The notes below the pieces were generated by a model, which worked only from the letters and a program-made list of their open reading frames with translations, was not told the DNA's origin and did no database searches. A stretch of DNA of 39,929 nt from a virus. The position numbers were made by a program, and so were the translations under genes. Shown in pieces: positions 17,351 through 39,929 of this stretch (positions are counted from its first letter, which is position 1; each line of letters opens with the position of its first letter). The stretch covers positions 1 to 39,929 of the IMG/VR virus record IMGVR_UViG_3300033981_000431, one strand, 5' to 3'.

Positions 17351-17488
17351 TGCTGGGCTCCTAGGAAAGGGTTGGGGGTTACCCCGACGCCGGGCTCCCA
17401 TTCACGACCGGGTGTCCACCGCAGTGGGCCGTCGAGGATTTGTGAGTGGGTCTAGGTGTAATCAGTGTACGGATAAATGCAAGCCATG
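17351..17488 (-). promoter_or_regulatory. Capsid-gene leader, presumed to contain its promoter
   Basis: This 138-nt non-coding leader lies between the scaffold-side terminator and the capsid ATG. It contains small hairpins (GGGG-TAA-CCCC and CCAC/GTGG types) and the capsid RBS. A segment GACCCACTCAC about 90 nt before the ATG resembles GACCCGGCTCGC at the early promoter candidate. No convincing sigma70 -35/-10 pair was found. A promoter is inferred mainly because a terminator stands upstream. Confidence 0.4.
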
Positions 17489-17514
17489 AAAAAGCCCCCC
17501 ATTGGAATGGAGGG
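17489..17514 (-). terminator. Rho-independent terminator between scaffold and capsid genes
   Basis: The minus strand forms CCCTCCATT/CC/AATGGGGGG, nine pairs with one G-U, then C and five T. It begins 18 nt after the scaffold stop codon. Confidence 0.8.
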
Positions 17515-17531
17515 CCCGGACAACCTGACGA

Positions 17532-18374
17532 TCAGAAGATGCTGGACCGTCCAAGTTTCTCCTGCACCTTTCTCTGATAAGCAGGGTCCTTGCTGTACCT
17601 GGGATCCGACATGGCTTCGACCAGTTGAGCTGTGCTCTCAAATTTGTCGCTGCTGCCCTTGGAGGCACGGCCACCAATGAGCTTGGGCTCACGACCCTCC
17701 ACTGCTGTGTACCGGGCATAAAGACCAGTAACCGCCATCTTCACTGCAGCCATGGGCTGGGTGTTGATGATCTGGTTAAAGCCCTCGACCTCCTCGGGTG
17801 ACAGGTTGTCACCGGCCCACTGGATCATCTTGCTGTACTCGGCCTCACCGCCAAGGGATTCCTTGATGGACGCCACCTCCTTGACCGACAGTGCCGTGTC
17901 TTGCGCTGCCTTGTACTGCAGCCCAGACAGGTACGCATCGACCATGTCCCGGTTGAAGCCGGCCTCGGCCAGCTGGTCGTAGTCCTCGGACTCCAAGGTG
18001 CCCGACTGTTGCCAGCGGACATTCATCTCCTGGAAGTCGATGCCGGCTTCGTTGAGCTTCCCGCCGATCAGGTCCCCGTAGATTTCACGGGCATCGCCAG
18101 CGGGCTTGTCGGTTTCGTCGTCGCTGCTATCGGTCTCGTCGTCGTCTTCAGCAGCGTCGTCGTCTTCAGCTTCTGGAGCGGTTGACTGACCACGGCTGAG
18201 CTTGGTCTGCAGCTCCTTGTACGCCTTCTCTAGGTCTTCGACGGACTTGTACTTGCCGGCCAAGAGTTCAGCTGGCTTCTCGTCTCCGTCACTTGCCAAG
18301 GCGGCAAGCATCTCCTCGTTCTCAGGCGACAGGGCCGGGCTCTCGTTCTGGGTGATCGTGATAGCTTCAGGCAT
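17532..18374 (-). CDS. Capsid scaffolding/assembly protein (gp9-like)
   Basis: This 280-residue protein lies between portal and capsid. It has a very acidic stretch (EAEDDDAAEDDDETDSSDD, residues about 68-86), a KYKSVEDLEKAYKELQ helix near 41-56, and a basic C-terminus (RKVQEKLGRSSIF), the usual form of T7-type scaffold with a capsid-binding C-terminal helix. It is expelled after procapsid assembly. T7 gp9 is 307 aa. The gene is followed by a terminator. Confidence 0.92.
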   Translation of the reverse strand: MPEAITITQNESPALSPENEEMLAALASDGDEKPAELLAGKYKSVEDLEKAYKELQTKLSRGQSTAPEAEDDDAAEDDDETDSSDDETDKPAGDAREIYGDLIGGKLNEAGIDFQEMNVRWQQSGTLESEDYDQLAEAGFNRDMVDAYLSGLQYKAAQDTALSVKEVASIKESLGGEAEYSKMIQWAGDNLSPEEVEGFNQIINTQPMAAVKMAVTGLYARYTAVEGREPKLIGGRASKGSSDKFESTAQLVEAMSDPRYSKDPAYQRKVQEKLGRSSIF

Positions 18375-27313: not shown

Positions 27314-27584
27314 CGGCACCCTTCAGCCTGTTAGCCACCAACCCTGCATAGCAAGCGATGTCACGCCAGTGGTCAGGTTTCCCTGGGTTCCCGGCAATGA
27401 TGCGCCCGATCTTGTGAGCGATCATGTCCAGACTCTCTTGCATGTCGGGGTCGAGCCTGCGGTCCAGCTCAGCGACGTGGTGGGTAATGACACGCTTCAG
27501 GTCTTGGGTGACCCGAGCGTGGACCACATAGTCCCCGTGTGTCCGGCCTCGTTCTTTTAAAAGGATGTTGATGTCTGTTGTCAT
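27306..27584 (-). CDS. DUF6378-type phage protein, 92 aa
   Basis: Contains KERGRTHGDYVVHARVTQDL followed by MIAHKIGRIIAGNPGKPDHW, the pattern of a widespread short phage family (DUF6378). These occur in many tailed phages, often near nucleotide or DNA metabolism genes. The biochemical role is not established. The start overlaps the preceding gene as ATGA. Confidence 0.85.
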   Translation of the reverse strand: MTTDINILLKERGRTHGDYVVHARVTQDLKRVITHHVAELDRRLDPDMQESLDMIAHKIGRIIAGNPGKPDHWRDIACYAGLVANRLKGADD

Positions 27585-27889
27585 GCGGCCTCTGGTGGTG
27601 TGGGTTGGTTGTTGGTGGATCCAAGGAATCGAGCTGCTTGTTGGCGGTCCCGGCGACCGAGCGCGGTCAACAGGTACCCCTTGGTGCTGGGCCTGATCAA
27701 TGCTGACTGATTCAACATCGACAGCTGTGCCTTGATGGCGCTTTGCAGCCACGCTGTCTCCCGGGTCAGGTAAGCCACGCGGACCGCTGTCTCCAGCTGA
27801 TCCAACGACAGGGCCTGTGGGTACACAAGCCACATCGCATCGAGTAGGTCGGACCGGAGCTGGGCCAACACAACGGGTTCGGGTTTCAT
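27581..27889 (-). CDS. Predicted winged-helix small protein, 102 aa
   Basis: Residues about 25-80 suggest a winged helix: SLDQLETAVRVAYLTRETAWLQ, then IKAQLSMLNQSALIRPSTKG and YLLTALGRRD, with the wing and recognition-helix spacing of small transcription factors. A disordered tail follows (STNNQPTPPEAA). A DNA-binding or early regulatory role is possible but only inferred. Overlaps on both sides are ATGA type. Confidence 0.75.
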   Translation of the reverse strand: MKPEPVVLAQLRSDLLDAMWLVYPQALSLDQLETAVRVAYLTRETAWLQSAIKAQLSMLNQSALIRPSTKGYLLTALGRRDRQQAARFLGSTNNQPTPPEAA

Positions 27890-29238: not shown

Positions 29239-29421
29239 TCAGGCCAAGGCCAGGCGTACCCGGTACCGGGTGACACCCAGATGCTCGGCAATGCGGCGCT
29301 GGCTCCAGCCAGAGCGGCTCAGGCGTCGCGCCCGTTGCTCGGTGGACTCGGCGGCCCAGAGGAGCACCAGGACGGGCAGCAGCAGAGCTGCGAGGCACAA
29401 GGCCAGGAAGGACGTTGTCAT
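29239..29421 (-). CDS. First early gene: membrane-anchored HTH-like peptide, 60 aa
   Basis: The N-terminus is one hydrophobic segment (FLALCLAALLLPVLVLLWAA, residues 5-24), followed by ESTEQRARRLSRS and a helix-turn-helix-like C-terminus, GWSQRRIAEHLGVTRYRVR, resembling the HTH of resolvases and sigma-like domains. This layout, a transmembrane anchor directly joined to a DNA-binding motif, is unusual. It is the first gene of the minus run, about 57 nt after a promoter candidate, so it is expressed first. Whether the HTH binds DNA is inferred. Confidence 0.65.
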   Translation of the reverse strand: MTTSFLALCLAALLLPVLVLLWAAESTEQRARRLSRSGWSQRRIAEHLGVTRYRVRLALA

Positions 29422-29478: not shown

Positions 29479-29508
29479 ACTATAGCGAGCCGGGTCAAGT
29501 TGGGTGAA
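29479..29508 (-). promoter_or_regulatory. Candidate early promoter for the minus-strand run
   Basis: The minus strand reads TTCACC, 18 nt, TATAGT, a plausible host sigma70 promoter. The -10 end is also within CTCGCTATAG (29480-29489), close to the T7 promoter core CTCACTATAG, so it could serve the phage polymerase. It lies 57 nt upstream of the first ATG. Confidence 0.5.
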
Positions 29509-29764
29509 GTTTGGGGGGCGGCTTGTGATTTAGGGACCAGGGTCAAGAATGAGAACCATTCTCACCGGACCCCCTGGCCACCCTTGTCCAGACCCCCTGT
29601 CCAACCTGCGCACCTGCCTATCTGACAGGTACGCAATGGCCCAGACCCCTTGGCACCACTGGGCTCTGCCCGCTTCTGGACAGCCCCCAGGTCTATTTTG
29701 GACAAGCGGGAGCGACCCCGGAGGGGGGGGAGCCCCGCTGACGCCTATAGCGTAAGCCCTTCAC

Positions 29765-29818
29765 ATTTTTGGGTCAAAAATCTACCCAACAAAAGTCCCT
29801 CGCATTTTTGGACCAAAA
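29765..29818. repeat. Pair of related inverted repeats
   Basis: ATTTTTG-GGT-CAAAAAT (29765-29781) is a perfect inverted repeat. TTTTGG-A-CCAAAA (29806-29818) is a second, with matching flanks (CATTTTTGG...CCC), about 40 bp apart. A partial third copy, TTTTGGACAA, lies at 29696-29705. Confidence 0.7.
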
Positions 29819-29916
29819 TTTTCCCTTACTCGTCTTTGTCCACCCCTAATCCCACCCCCAAGAAACGACGTCCGCCATAATTTAATAAAGGTGAACATAG
29901 GTGTCTATAGTTCTCT

Positions 29917-30061
29917 ATGGTTTACCATGTATTTTCATCATCAGTACCAATGAAAGAAGATCCTGGTTAACCATATTCTCCTAGGTTAACCATGTACTTG
30001 GTATTACCTTACCTCCTAACCGCTTCCCTTCGGGAAGCTATACACTATGGTTAACCATAGT
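29917..30061. repeat. Cluster of four GGTTAACC-type palindromes
   Basis: ATGGTTTACCAT (29917-29928), TGGTTAACCA (29964-29973), GGTTAACC (29984-29991) and the perfect 18-bp palindrome ACTATGGTTAACCATAGT (30044-30061). Centres are 46, 19 and 65 bp apart. They lie in AT-rich non-coding DNA. They look like operators or initiator sites. Confidence 0.8.
30022..30038. other. Stable hairpin GCTTCCC-TTC-GGGAAGC
   Basis: A perfect 7-bp stem with a 3-nt loop between palindromes three and four. No T tract on either side, so simple termination is unlikely. Confidence 0.6.
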
Positions 30062-30092
30062 AGCTATATAGTATCTATATACTATATATAGA

Positions 30093-30112
30093 GGGGGGGG
30101 TAAGGCCCCCCC
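30093..30112. other. G8/C7 hairpin upstream of the plus-strand block
   Basis: Eight G, TAAGG, then seven C can pair as a 7-bp stem. It is directly preceded by a TA-rich tract, with a CTTTTTT tract about 27 nt further on. Possible leader structure, attenuator or unwinding site. Confidence 0.5.
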
Positions 30113-30233
30113 AGCTCTTAGGACAGCCAGCCCTTTCCACTTTTTTCTGCAGCCTTTCTTTCTTCACTCACGCACACATATGTACTACTGGTCCTGGGTC
30201 CTACCATTGGCCCATTAGCCCCCCTGTGCCCCC

Positions 30234-30482
30234 ATGGGTCGCCCTAACGAATCCGAGGCCTCAAGGGTCCTGTCGAACCTCCACACCGACCTGGCGCTCC
30301 ACTTGCGGTCCAGGCTCGACGATGGGTCCATCAGCACCGCTGAGCTCAACATCCTTCGTCAGTTCCTCAAGGACAACGGCATCTCAGCTCAACCGGTGGC
30401 CGGCACCAGCTTTGGGGACCTGGTGGCCTCCTTGCCGGACATGGATAAGATTGTGCAGATGCCCCGGCGCAAGGTCGCCTAG
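30234..30482 (+). CDS. Terminase small subunit (gp18-like)
   Basis: This 82-residue protein contains DLALHLRSRLDDGSISTAEL, FLKDNGISAQP and MPRRKVA, the pattern of T7-like small terminases (T7 gp18 is 89 aa). They regulate the packaging motor and recognise the concatemer. It is the first gene of the plus-strand block, downstream of the long control region. It is separated from the large subunit by seven genes, unusual for this phage type. Confidence 0.82.
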   Translation: MGRPNESEASRVLSNLHTDLALHLRSRLDDGSISTAELNILRQFLKDNGISAQPVAGTSFGDLVASLPDMDKIVQMPRRKVA

Positions 30483-32332: not shown

Positions 32333-32748
32333 CCTTATACTCGCACTACACCGCCACCCCCGCGCATCTCCCCCACCGCATCCGCTTTGCGGACGGCAGC
32401 ACCCGCACGGACGCCAGCACCTTCACGCCTGACGAGCTGGAGCGTGCCGGTTACAGCGGCCCTTACGAGCGCCCCGAGTGCAACCCGAAGCTGGAGACGA
32501 TCGACTGGGACGCCGAGGCGCTTGAGTACATCGTGCGCCCCTACGGCTTCGATGAGCTGCAAACGCAGCACGCCAAGATCCGCGAACGGCGCATCGAGCT
32601 GCTGCAGTCCTGTGACTGGACGCAGATTGCTGACTACGACCTCGGCGCTGATCGTGAAGCCTGGGCCGCCTACCGCCAGGCCCTGCGCGACCTGGCCGAT
32701 GCGCCCAACCCGTTTGACATCACCTGGCCGCAGCCGCCCGCGCCTTGA
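32329..32748 (+). CDS. Tail-fibre assembly/chaperone-like protein, 139 aa
   Basis: The C-terminal half has RERRIELLQSCDWTQIADYD followed by REAWAAYRQALRDLADAPNP and DITWP, the signature of phage tail assembly chaperone domains, in which a DWTQ...WAAYRQALRDL...WP pattern is typical. It probably folds or loads the adhesin encoded just upstream. Overlaps are 4 nt at both ends. The gene is GC-rich unlike its partner. Confidence 0.8.
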   Translation: MTLYSHYTATPAHLPHRIRFADGSTRTDASTFTPDELERAGYSGPYERPECNPKLETIDWDAEALEYIVRPYGFDELQTQHAKIRERRIELLQSCDWTQIADYDLGADREAWAAYRQALRDLADAPNPFDITWPQPPAP

Positions 32749-34466
32749 TGACTTGGGTTGACCTTCCGGAACCGTTGTCCACGGACTTTCGGTTTTTCTT
32801 GGTTTTGGTCTGGCGCCACTTGAGCCTTCCGGATCCAACGCCGATCCAGCTCGACATTGCTCACTACATGCAACACGGCTCCAAGCGCCGCATTGTTGAG
32901 GCGTTTCGGGGCGTGGGTAAGTCCTGGATGGCCGCGGCCTACGTGCTGTGGTTGTTGCGTTTGGACCCCCAAAGAAAAATCATGGTGGTGTCGGCCTCCA
33001 AGACCCGGGCCGATGACTTCACCATGTTCTGCATCCGTTTGATCCGCGAGATGCCGATGCTCCAGGCGCTGGAGCCGGACCGAGACGAGCAACGATCCGC
33101 CGTGAATCGGTTTGACGTCAGGCCCGCCATTCCGGACCAGAGCCCATCCGTCAAAGCGGTCGGCATCTTTGGCCAGTTGACCGGGTCCAGGGCCGACTTG
33201 ATCCTGTCTGATGACGTGGAGACACCGACGACGTCGTGGTCTGTCGGCATCCGGGAGAAGCTTCTGGCTGCTGTCGGTGAGTTCAACGCCATCCTGAAGC
33301 CCGGCGGCGAGATCATGTTCCTTGGTACGCCACAAACTGAGGAGTCGATCTACAACAAGCTGGCCCAACGTGGATACGAGGTGCGCATTTGGCCGGCTCG
33401 GTACCCCGAGAAACCCGTCAAATACGGCGACCACCTGGCCCCCGTTGTCGCAGAGGGGTGCCCAGAACTTACAAATCAACCAACAGACCCAGGTCGTTTC
33501 AGCGAGATGGACCTGCTGGAGCGGGAGACGTCGTACGGCCGGTCGGCATTTGCGCTCCAGTTCCAACTGGACACCAGCCTCAGCGATGCTGAGCGGTTCC
33601 CGCTGAAGCTCGCGGATCTGATGGTCCTGGAGGTCTCTGATCACGCGCCAGAAAAGGTCGTGTGGTCGTCTGGGGCCGAGTACCGCATCAGCGATCTGCC
33701 GGCGGTGGGTTTCAACGGCGACTACTACTACCGGCCTGCCTACATCCACGGCACCTGGTTGCCGTTTCAGGGGTGCGTCATGTTTATTGACCCCTCTGGT
33801 CGTGGCCTGGATGAAACGGCTTACGCGATCGTGGCTCATCTCAACGGCAACCTGTTCTTGCTGGAGTCCGGGGCGTTCCGAGACGGCTACTCAGAACCCG
33901 TTCTGCAGGGCCTGGCAACGGCTGCAAAGCGCCAGAAGGTCAATCTGATCCTCCTAGAGGACCAGTTTGGCCAAGGCATGCTGGAGAGCCTTCTGAAGCC
34001 GTATCTACAGGTGCAGCATCCGTGCACCATTGAGACGGTCAGGTCCAATGTGCAGAAAGAACGCCGCATCATCGCGGCTTTGGAGCCCGTCCTGAACCAG
34101 CACCGGCTCATCGTCAGCCGATCGGTGATCGAAGGTGACGCCAAGACTCGTGACGACGAAGCCATCGAGAAGCGCCTGGCGTACCAGCTTTTCCACCAAC
34201 TGACGCACCTGACGGCAGACCGTGGTTGCTTGGCCCACGACGACCGACTCGACGCCTTGGCCGGTGCCGTCCAGTATTGGAATGAATCGCTGGCCATTGA
34301 TGAAGACCGAGCAATCAAGGAACGACAGTCAGAGCTTTGGGACCTGGAGCTTCAGGCGTACATGGGAGACCTTGAAGGAGCGCTTGATCGATCTCTTCTG
34401 GGCGGCAGCATTACGGATCTCGCTGCGGCCCCGGCCGCCACGGGCTGGATCAGGCCTCGTCGCTAA
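32745..34466 (+). CDS. Terminase large subunit (gp19-like)
   Basis: This 573-residue packaging motor (T7 gp19: 586) has Walker A RGVGKS (K59), Walker B ADLILSDDVE (D156/D157), and an RNase H-like nuclease with FIDPSGRG (D349), LLEDQFGQG and AHDDRLDALAGA (D499/D500). It cuts concatemers and pumps DNA into the prohead. It starts with a 4-nt overlap. Its orientation is opposite to the structural genes, unlike in T7. Confidence 0.95.
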   Translation: MMTWVDLPEPLSTDFRFFLVLVWRHLSLPDPTPIQLDIAHYMQHGSKRRIVEAFRGVGKSWMAAAYVLWLLRLDPQRKIMVVSASKTRADDFTMFCIRLIREMPMLQALEPDRDEQRSAVNRFDVRPAIPDQSPSVKAVGIFGQLTGSRADLILSDDVETPTTSWSVGIREKLLAAVGEFNAILKPGGEIMFLGTPQTEESIYNKLAQRGYEVRIWPARYPEKPVKYGDHLAPVVAEGCPELTNQPTDPGRFSEMDLLERETSYGRSAFALQFQLDTSLSDAERFPLKLADLMVLEVSDHAPEKVVWSSGAEYRISDLPAVGFNGDYYYRPAYIHGTWLPFQGCVMFIDPSGRGLDETAYAIVAHLNGNLFLLESGAFRDGYSEPVLQGLATAAKRQKVNLILLEDQFGQGMLESLLKPYLQVQHPCTIETVRSNVQKERRIIAALEPVLNQHRLIVSRSVIEGDAKTRDDEAIEKRLAYQLFHQLTHLTADRGCLAHDDRLDALAGAVQYWNESLAIDEDRAIKERQSELWDLELQAYMGDLEGALDRSLLGGSITDLAAAPAATGWIRPRR

Positions 34467-38221: not shown

Positions 38222-39929
38222 CTACACGTTAGTTGCGTCTGCGTTCCAGACAAATTGAGCGGTTCCAGTTGGCGTAGCGTTTACATTGATCCTGAAAGTA
38301 GTAGAGGTTACAGTGTCCACCCAGAACCGAGTAACTCCTGCTGCATCTGCTCCTAAACGAGCAAAGATTTCACTCGTTGAAGGAGTCACTCCTAACCCAT
38401 GAGTTACTGTCACAAACGTGTTGGGGTTGCTAATACTAGCTGTTCCGCTATTGCGTAAAGCAAATCCATTGATGCCAGACCCACGCCTATTCCCAGTACC
38501 AGAATCAACTAGCTTTGATTCAGAGTTGCAGTTTCTAAACGTGCAATCTGAAACCATACACTTAGATGACGTTGCAGTAAACTCAAGAGCCTTAGTGCCT
38601 GCTATGTTGTTTCCGCCAATAAACGAACATGAAGTAATTACATGATTTTCTCCACCGATTGACGCAAACGTGTTGGTGTAATTGTTGCCAAGAAAGGTGC
38701 AACCGGCAATAACTGAGTTGATTCCGCGAATGTCGATGTACTTAGTTGCAGACGAAATGGCACCAGGATCCTCGCCAATAACGCAGTTGACAATGCTCCA
38801 GTTGTCGCAATTAGCATTTGCTTGAAAAATTGCTGAAAGAGTATGGTTGCGTATTTGGCTAGAGCCAATGAGAAGCTGGTCAACACTGCTAGCCGTGTCA
38901 ACATAAATCGCCCTTGCGGCACTGCGAAAATAGCAGTTTGAAAATCTAAAATTGCGGTACCTGCTAGCTGTTCCCGAAAAGCGAATGTTGTTTGCAGATG
39001 AGTTACAAGTGTCAAAGTAAACACTTGTCCAGAAAATAGTTGCGCATGTATCTCGGTGAGCAACACCGTTGGGGGCAATGTCTACACCACCATGCTGGTG
39101 CCCATTGACAAAATAAATGCCGTCCGACCCTTCAATAGAAACTGCGTAATCAGGCCTTTGGCTAGGATGAGTTGAAGGATCCTGAGTAAACAGTTGGAAG
39201 TTTGTGATGTGAATGTCGGAATTATTATTGGCCGTGCTTTTGAATACAAGCTGATGAGAAGCAGCGGTTCCGACGGTGCGGCTGGTTTGATGCGTGTCGA
39301 GGTTGGTGATGTAAACTTTGCCGCACCCATCCAAAGTCAGGCAGTTCCATCCGCCGTCCAACGAAACCGAGTGTATAAAGCCGTGGAGCGCCCTATTAAA
39401 TAGAAGCAGGGTTCCTGCGGTTGCATTACCAGATGCAAGAATCCGCAAGTTTTGAACTGAAGCTCGGTAAATTGCAGACGATCCGCCACTTGCCTCAAAC
39501 TTGATTACATCATAGTTAGGGCTTTGCGCTTCAATTACAGCTGAAGACGGGCTCTCACCGCAAAGACCAACATTGCTGGAAGACACAATCAGCGAAGCCG
39601 TTACTTTGTAAGTTCCCGCTGGGAAAAAAACGGTTGCGCCTGATCGAAATGCGCTGATTACTTTTGTCTGCGCGTAATTGATAGCAGCTTGAATTGCTGT
39701 AGTGTCATTTGCAACCCCATCACCAACCGCCCCAAAGTCCTTTACGGACACCACATCCTTGAGTTTGAAATCAACAGTCCTAGTAACCGCACCAACACCC
39801 CCCTGCGTCCAATAGACCCCACTGGCCTGATCGGTGGTAATACCAGCAGCGTTATTGACACAGTGAACATCCACCACATCCCCAAGAACAAGGGCAGGAG
39901 TGAAGACAATGCTGGTTCCGTTGTCTGCT
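38222..39929 (-). CDS. Tail fibre protein, distal beta-helix part (gene starts at 664)
   Basis: This is the C-terminal portion of the tail fibre, read in phase from base 1 across the circular join. After the gp17-like anchor comes a connector (LKDVVSVKDFGAVGDGVAND) that opens a right-handed beta-helix of the pectate-lyase-3/tailspike type. Repeated turns rich in N, S, V and I follow for about 350 residues. The last 80 residues (GVTPSTSEIFARLGADAAGV region) look like a small beta-sandwich trimerisation or tip domain. Role: host receptor recognition, possibly polysaccharide cleavage; no catalytic residues can be assigned by eye. Codon use is clearly more AT-rich than in the anchor, suggesting the distal module was exchanged. 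An internal GTG at 39877 could be mistaken for a start, but the upstream open frame and anchor domain argue against it. Confidence 0.92.
   Translation of the reverse strand, partial: ADNGTSIVFTPALVLGDVVDVHCVNNAAGITTDQASGVYWTQGGVGAVTRTVDFKLKDVVSVKDFGAVGDGVANDTTAIQAAINYAQTKVISAFRSGATVFFPAGTYKVTASLIVSSSNVGLCGESPSSAVIEAQSPNYDVIKFEASGGSSAIYRASVQNLRILASGNATAGTLLLFNRALHGFIHSVSLDGGWNCLTLDGCGKVYITNLDTHQTSRTVGTAASHQLVFKSTANNNSDIHITNFQLFTQDPSTHPSQRPDYAVSIEGSDGIYFVNGHQHGGVDIAPNGVAHRDTCATIFWTSVYFDTCNSSANNIRFSGTASRYRNFRFSNCYFRSAARAIYVDTASSVDQLLIGSSQIRNHTLSAIFQANANCDNWSIVNCVIGEDPGAISSATKYIDIRGINSVIAGCTFLGNNYTNTFASIGGENHVITSCSFIGGNNIAGTKALEFTATSSKCMVSDCTFRNCNSESKLVDSGTGNRRGSGINGFALRNSGTASISNPNTFVTVTHGLGVTPSTSEIFARLGADAAGVTRFWVDTVTSTTFRINVNATPTGTAQFVWNADATNV
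39868..39929. repeat. Terminal direct repeat, right copy (contig overlap)
   Basis: This is the exact second copy of bases 1-62. Removing one copy gives a 39867-bp circular sequence in which the tail fibre frame is continuous. Confidence 0.95.

Follow-up and report, generated by a model that had tools for sequence, protein, structure and literature searches.

A phased palindrome array beside a predicted genome end in a T7-like cyanophage without a DNA polymerase

Phage T7 (V01146) carries short repeats next to its terminal repeat, in SRR (39539-39777), which stands between the right-end genes and the terminal-repeat boundary, and in SRL (161-400). The units read CCTAAGG, CCTATAGG or CCTAAAG and are spaced 11-12 bp in SRR and 13 bp in SRL. 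They are not known to serve any particular function, an operator role included. Packaging specificity in T3 and T7 involves gp19 and the terminal DNA of the right end, and RNA polymerase that pauses at the junction between concatemer units brings in gp18/gp19 (PMC3276506). For the small terminase subunit (TerS), DNA-wrapping models have been proposed and are contested (PMC9611059). The genome ends of P-SSP7 were determined experimentally (PMC3350473). MPP-C phages have been described without a DNA polymerase, and their replication mechanism was left open by the authors (PMC9860041).

The phage and its relatives

The window, the whole stretch analysed here, comprises the 39,929 nt of IMG/VR record IMGVR_UViG_3300033981_000431. 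Its assembly is circular, with ends that overlap by 63 bp, the expected product of terminal repeats, for which P-SSP7 is a precedent (PMC3350473). The gene set is T7-like and includes a single-subunit T7-like RNA polymerase (RNAP), gp2.5, endonuclease I, primase/helicase and a gp6-like exonuclease, together with portal, scaffold, capsid, tail tubes and gp18/gp19 terminase. A family-A (PolA-family) DNA polymerase was not found in the window, bearing out the preliminary description of a phage without its own enzyme. Among named phages, P-SCSP1/P-SCSP1u of the MPP-C cyanopodoviruses come closest, with identities of 74% for the large terminase subunit (TerL) and 47% for RNAP. Assigned from its genes, the window phage is a polymerase-less T7-like cyanophage of the P-SCSP1u kind, within the MPP-C cyanopodovirus lineage.

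Since megablast against named phages gave zero matches, relatives were drawn from IMG/VR by searches with RNAP and TerL, which yielded about 125. Contigs with pairs of GGTTAACCAT (L133, L136, L137, L138, L140, L142 and L148) were rejected as relatives because they encode no relative of the window phage; in the viral contigs L133, L136, L137 and L142 the pairs are spaced 12-13 bp, and no homology to the window phage was found. Upstream of the capsid gene (17401-17532) lie a terminator-like hairpin with a T-run and then a promoter-like block, GTACACTG....ACCTAGACCCACTC, conserved in relatives with capsid identities as low as 85%.

Anatomy and conservation of the array

As first described, four ATGGTTAACCAT-type palindromes lie within 145 bp, one of them a perfect 18-mer. 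Their spacings of 46, 19 and 65 bp hold when measured start to start, and the adjoining TA-rich stretch is real (Table 1). Single sites mean nothing, because one-mismatch copies of GGTTAACC are not rare across the window (11 found, 10 expected). The stretch 29841-30120 holds four one-mismatch and three perfect copies of the motif, at a GC content of 0.42 against 0.60. None of 5000 exact dinucleotide shuffles of this local stretch matched the palindrome cluster, and four sites within 145 bp arose in none of 100 shuffles of the whole window.

Table 1. Positions of the array, the predicted genome end and neighbouring genes in the window
Feature	Positions	Strand	Sequence or remark
Winged-helix gene	27581-27889		Kept also in relatives that lost the array
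Small HTH protein	29239-29421	-	Close relatives only
Sigma-70-like promoter	29479-29508	-	TTCACC-18-TATAGT, ahead of the early genes read leftward; matched by consensus only
C/G-run hairpin	29716-29736		17-37 nt inside the predicted end
Terminal-repeat boundary motif	29750-29780	-	TTTTTGACCCAAAAATGTGAAGGGCTTACGC; conserved 31-nt element left of the array
Mature linear genome, predicted left end	29752-29753	-	Terminal repeat leftward; from the 26-27-nt offset
Second boundary-motif copy	29789-29819	-	Diverged
Left box	29865-29887		ACGACGTCCGCCATAATTTAATA; conserved; possible leftward -10 region
Left arm	29890-29935		10-bp-phased half-sites CATAGGTGTC TATAGTTCTC TATGGTT...; copy number varies among relatives
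Palindrome 1	29917-29928		ATGGTTTACCAT; imperfect, one central mismatch
Palindrome 2	29963-29974		CTGGTTAACCAT; 10-bp perfect core 29964-29973
Palindrome 3	29982-29993		TAGGTTAACCAT; 8-bp perfect core 29984-29991
Hairpin	30022-30038		GCTTCCCTTCGGGAAGC; 7-bp stem; conserved, between palindromes 3 and 4
Palindrome 4	30044-30061		ACTATGGTTAACCATAGT; perfect 18-mer, includes ATGGTTAACCAT at 30047
Right arm	30062-30093		TA-rich phased repeats CTATATAG/CTATATAC
G-run/C-run inverted repeat	30093-30112		Outer end of the right arm
Right box	30170-30189		ACGCACACATATGTACTACT; conserved, upstream of TerS; single copy in the window
Terminase small subunit, TerS	30234-30482	+	PHROG 891
Terminase large subunit, TerL	32745-34466	+	PHROG 38

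The palindromes belong to a more extensive set of half-sites, TATAGGT/CTATRGTT, which recur at 10-bp intervals (in some cases 11 bp) in arms that point outward. The 10-bp period in the window has a z of about 4-5.5, and no shuffle was as strong (0 of 60 and 0 of 300). Most array-bearing relatives show periodicity with z of about 4 to 13 against Markov shuffles. The preliminary description had proposed a comparison with the homologous regions of relatives; these regions retain both the palindromes and the distances between them, so that the array withstands the refutation named in that description. The array recurs in about 25 distinct relatives with spacings of 46, 19-20 and 65-75 bp, palindromes 2 and 3 being nearly invariant in an alignment of 25 distinct copies. 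Differences in left-arm length are mostly multiples of the 10-bp unit.

Conservation is 0.88 in palindrome columns and 0.86 in their neighbours, so slight a difference that the whole region, not the dyads alone, must be constrained. Because the flanks are almost as conserved as the sites, we regard the region in its entirety, about 250 bp, as the functional unit. Covariation inside the palindromes showed no excess over shuffles. The hairpin between palindromes 3 and 4 is paired in 100% of sequences and has two compensatory pairs; distant relatives have a hairpin in the same place with different stem sequences. The earlier idea that several dimers could sit on this DNA fared well, since the sequence pattern makes a conserved multi-site protein-binding array likely. 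The phasing, the hairpin and the boundary motif at 29750-29780 had all been overlooked. Some relatives (L015, L046, L063, L150) have an insertion of about 40 bp directly after the right-box TACTACT, at window position 30190.

Boundary motif and predicted genome end

The array lies 110-360 bp outside a boundary motif shared by almost every relative for which enough sequence is available, P-SCSP1u and the array-less P-SCSP2 among them. A matrix built from 46 sites, all from the window's own lineage, was scanned over complete genomes of 75,000-92,000 positions each. In LUZ100 (37061) and Syn5 (45951) the right terminal-repeat boundary scored highest genome-wide; in P-SSP7 (44944) it ranked third and in T7 (39751) fifth. 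Of 300 trials with column-shuffled matrices, 1 performed comparably, success in at least two of these four phages being required. No convincing boundary motif was found in phiKMV.

The distance from motif start to terminal-repeat start is 27 nt in T7, T3, P-SSP7 and Syn5 and 26 nt in gh-1; the exception is LUZ100, where the annotated terminal repeat starts 39 nt from the motif. The right end of T7 reads ACCATAAAAATCTGAGTGACTA, then, from the start of the terminal repeat, TCTCACAG. On the basis of the 26-27-nt offset in known phages, the mature end is predicted at about 29753, with the genome running leftward into the early genes. A C/G-run hairpin lies inside this predicted end (Table 1), as it does inside the ends of T7, P-SSP7, gh-1 and LUZ100. 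Termini could not be seen directly at the contig ends of relatives. The palindromes are thus predicted to sit just outside the genome end, at the place of the subterminal short repeats of T7. For P-SCSP1u, whose record is linearised at an arbitrary point and not at the predicted end, the same rule would put the terminus between AAAAATCTGAGGGGTTA and ACG. The linear genome start can be predicted to about one base for the whole polymerase-less cyanophage lineage, whose published records lack it.

Several further features surround the boundary. In the window and several close relatives the motif stands in tandem, 39 bp apart (29750-29819), and of these copies only that near the C/G hairpin has the usual downstream sequence. 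An inverted repeat, ACCTG...CAGGT (29609-29633), lies within the predicted terminal repeat and is kept in the distant L117 and L127. The element TTTTTCCACC was considered as a DnaA box and rejected, as its bases vary and it belongs to the boundary motif. The window and the ends of T7, T3, gh-1, P-SSP7, Syn5 and LUZ100 seem to have a common signal, AAAAATCTGARKGG...TA up to the boundary and then a C/G hairpin. This signal, apparently valid for distant T7-like phages, could serve to predict genome ends in metagenomic contigs.

Readings of the array and comparison with known phages

We propose that the region concerns the genome ends more than the control of genes. With a probability of roughly two in three, the array is a concatemer-junction short-repeat region of the T7 type, on which a phased nucleoprotein complex would serve end formation and packaging. 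In the proposed layout, read on the minus strand, TerS is followed by the conserved box, a hairpin with phased repeats on either side, the boundary motif, the cut (about 29753), the terminal repeat and finally the early genes. Half-sites aligned along one face of the helix would be where an oligomeric protein loads on the DNA, the simplest candidate being the terminase (TerS/TerL) or a partner. The loaded complex would position cleavage at the boundary motif. The hairpin could help to regenerate the terminal repeat or to orient the complex during concatemer maturation and packaging. The position of the array, the boundary motif with its offset in known phages, the phasing and the hairpin are observed; what binds the array and how it acts there are inferred. 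In keeping with this reading, the array adjoins TerS, and regularly spaced short repeats stand between the right-end genes and the predicted terminal repeat, with the boundary motif beside them. Counting against it, the array is also flanked by divergent genes, a setting in which regulators bind. The 39-nt offset in LUZ100 and the lack of a convincing motif in phiKMV count against it as well. The boundary motif occurs without such an array in P-SSP7, Syn5, P-SCSP2 and a subclade bearing a winged-helix (wHTH) gene, so T7-type end formation in general can do without the array. On balance, the palindromes more likely aid DNA cutting and packaging than act as a gene switch or a replication start. 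Dozens of natural variants, with copy-number steps of 10 bp, loss of the array or exchange for a winged-helix gene, offer test material for the role of the T7 short repeats.

The preliminary description had suggested an operator array between two gene blocks or a replication initiation site, and neither proposal gained support. As an operator or activator array, the dyads and half-sites would bind dimers of a phage or host regulator that switch the leftward early and the rightward terminase blocks. This is unlikely, although the array does lie between divergent gene blocks, with a small HTH gene nearby. A conserved -10-like box adjoins the left arm, and its -35 region would be covered by half-sites. 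A winged-helix gene takes the place of the array in a sister subclade. Boxes of the cyanobacterial response regulators RpaB and SphR were considered as candidates for the 10-bp half-sites. However, the boundary motif with its fixed offset to mapped genome ends adjoins the array, and the other candidate early promoter (29508-29479) is about 400 bp away, beyond the predicted genome end. Similar T7 repeats stand at the same place and, to our knowledge, have no operator function. A search for a neighbouring gene that could supply an operator partner and whose conservation follows that of the sites found none. The small HTH protein was rejected as binding partner, since it is found only in the closest relatives and is missing from many array-bearing ones, the array being more widespread, and the winged-helix gene at 27581-27889 is kept without the array.

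The sister subclade carries its own plus-strand winged-helix gene upstream of TerS, exactly where the array would be. These genes fall into two unrelated-looking types (for example, L127 7550-7924 and L117 2037-2423). A TATAGGT-type array was found in none of the winged-helix-bearing contigs of this subclade, and the DNA polymerase is absent there as well. Profile matches are weak and mixed, one type resembling a replication initiation O-like protein (about 1e-4) and the other MarR/SarA-like proteins, and the gene was rejected as a replication initiator. It is doubtful, though conceivable, that the array offers a dedicated oligomer a platform for loading at the concatemer junction, phased with the helix, and that the winged-helix gene replaces it in the sister subclade. 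A cis-acting DNA scaffold and a protein would then perform one and the same task, be it end formation, origin choice or terminase control. The pattern in this subclade would also fit a regulatory role or a functional exchange of the array with the winged-helix gene.

A replication origin, with an initiator on the dyads or phased half-sites beside the TA-rich stretch, would answer the need created by the missing polymerase; we consider it very improbable. An AT-rich stretch, which an iteron-type origin would be expected to have alongside a co-conserved initiator gene, does adjoin the repeated sites. The window has no PolA-family polymerase, the host enzyme must be recruited somewhere, and the replication mechanism of MPP-C phages has been left open (PMC9860041). 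Yet polymerase-less relatives exist without the array, namely P-SCSP2 and the winged-helix-bearing contigs of L098, L127 and L091, and its loss in that subclade argues against a special origin for polymerase-less phages. Cumulative GC skew at the array has a maximum, not a minimum; no initiator gene was identified, and no DNA-binding protein was found that tracks the array. Promoters of the T7-like phage RNA polymerase, with CTATGG/CTATAGG cores as start sites and palindromes serving both strands, have hardly any likelihood and were rejected: the phage encodes such a polymerase and in some relatives the right arm carries, at its outer end, a T7-promoter-like ACTATAGGG, but the motif and its neighbours are confined to the array region and absent before the capsid and other late genes, the 10-bp spacing is too tight for separate promoters, and the G-run is swapped for a C-run in some relatives.

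Among described phages, P-SSP7 and Syn5 share the boundary motif 27 nt ahead of the terminal repeat, but both differ from the window in having a DNA polymerase gene and in lacking a short-repeat array. T7 resembles the window in the CTAWRG core of its repeats and in the boundary motif and C/G hairpin at matching distances. This core, chosen after looking, occurs 9 times in 239 bp of the T7 right repeats (1.0 expected) and 5 times in 340 bp of the window array (0.27 expected), and is also enriched in the T7 left repeats. Unlike T7, the window has 10-bp spacing, dyad units including the perfect 18-mer, a compensated hairpin inside the array and terminase genes that point away from the junction. 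No counterpart of the array was identified in the window at the opposite flank of the terminal repeat. LUZ100 also has phased repeats, with a 12-bp period. Prochlorococcus phage P-SCSP1u (OM416779) differs in GC content (39% against 60%) and shares with the window a divergent TerS, the boundary motif and, according to its authors, the absence of a polymerase. It too has a phased array, of three units only, with ATCTTAGATAT repeated three times at 11 bp.
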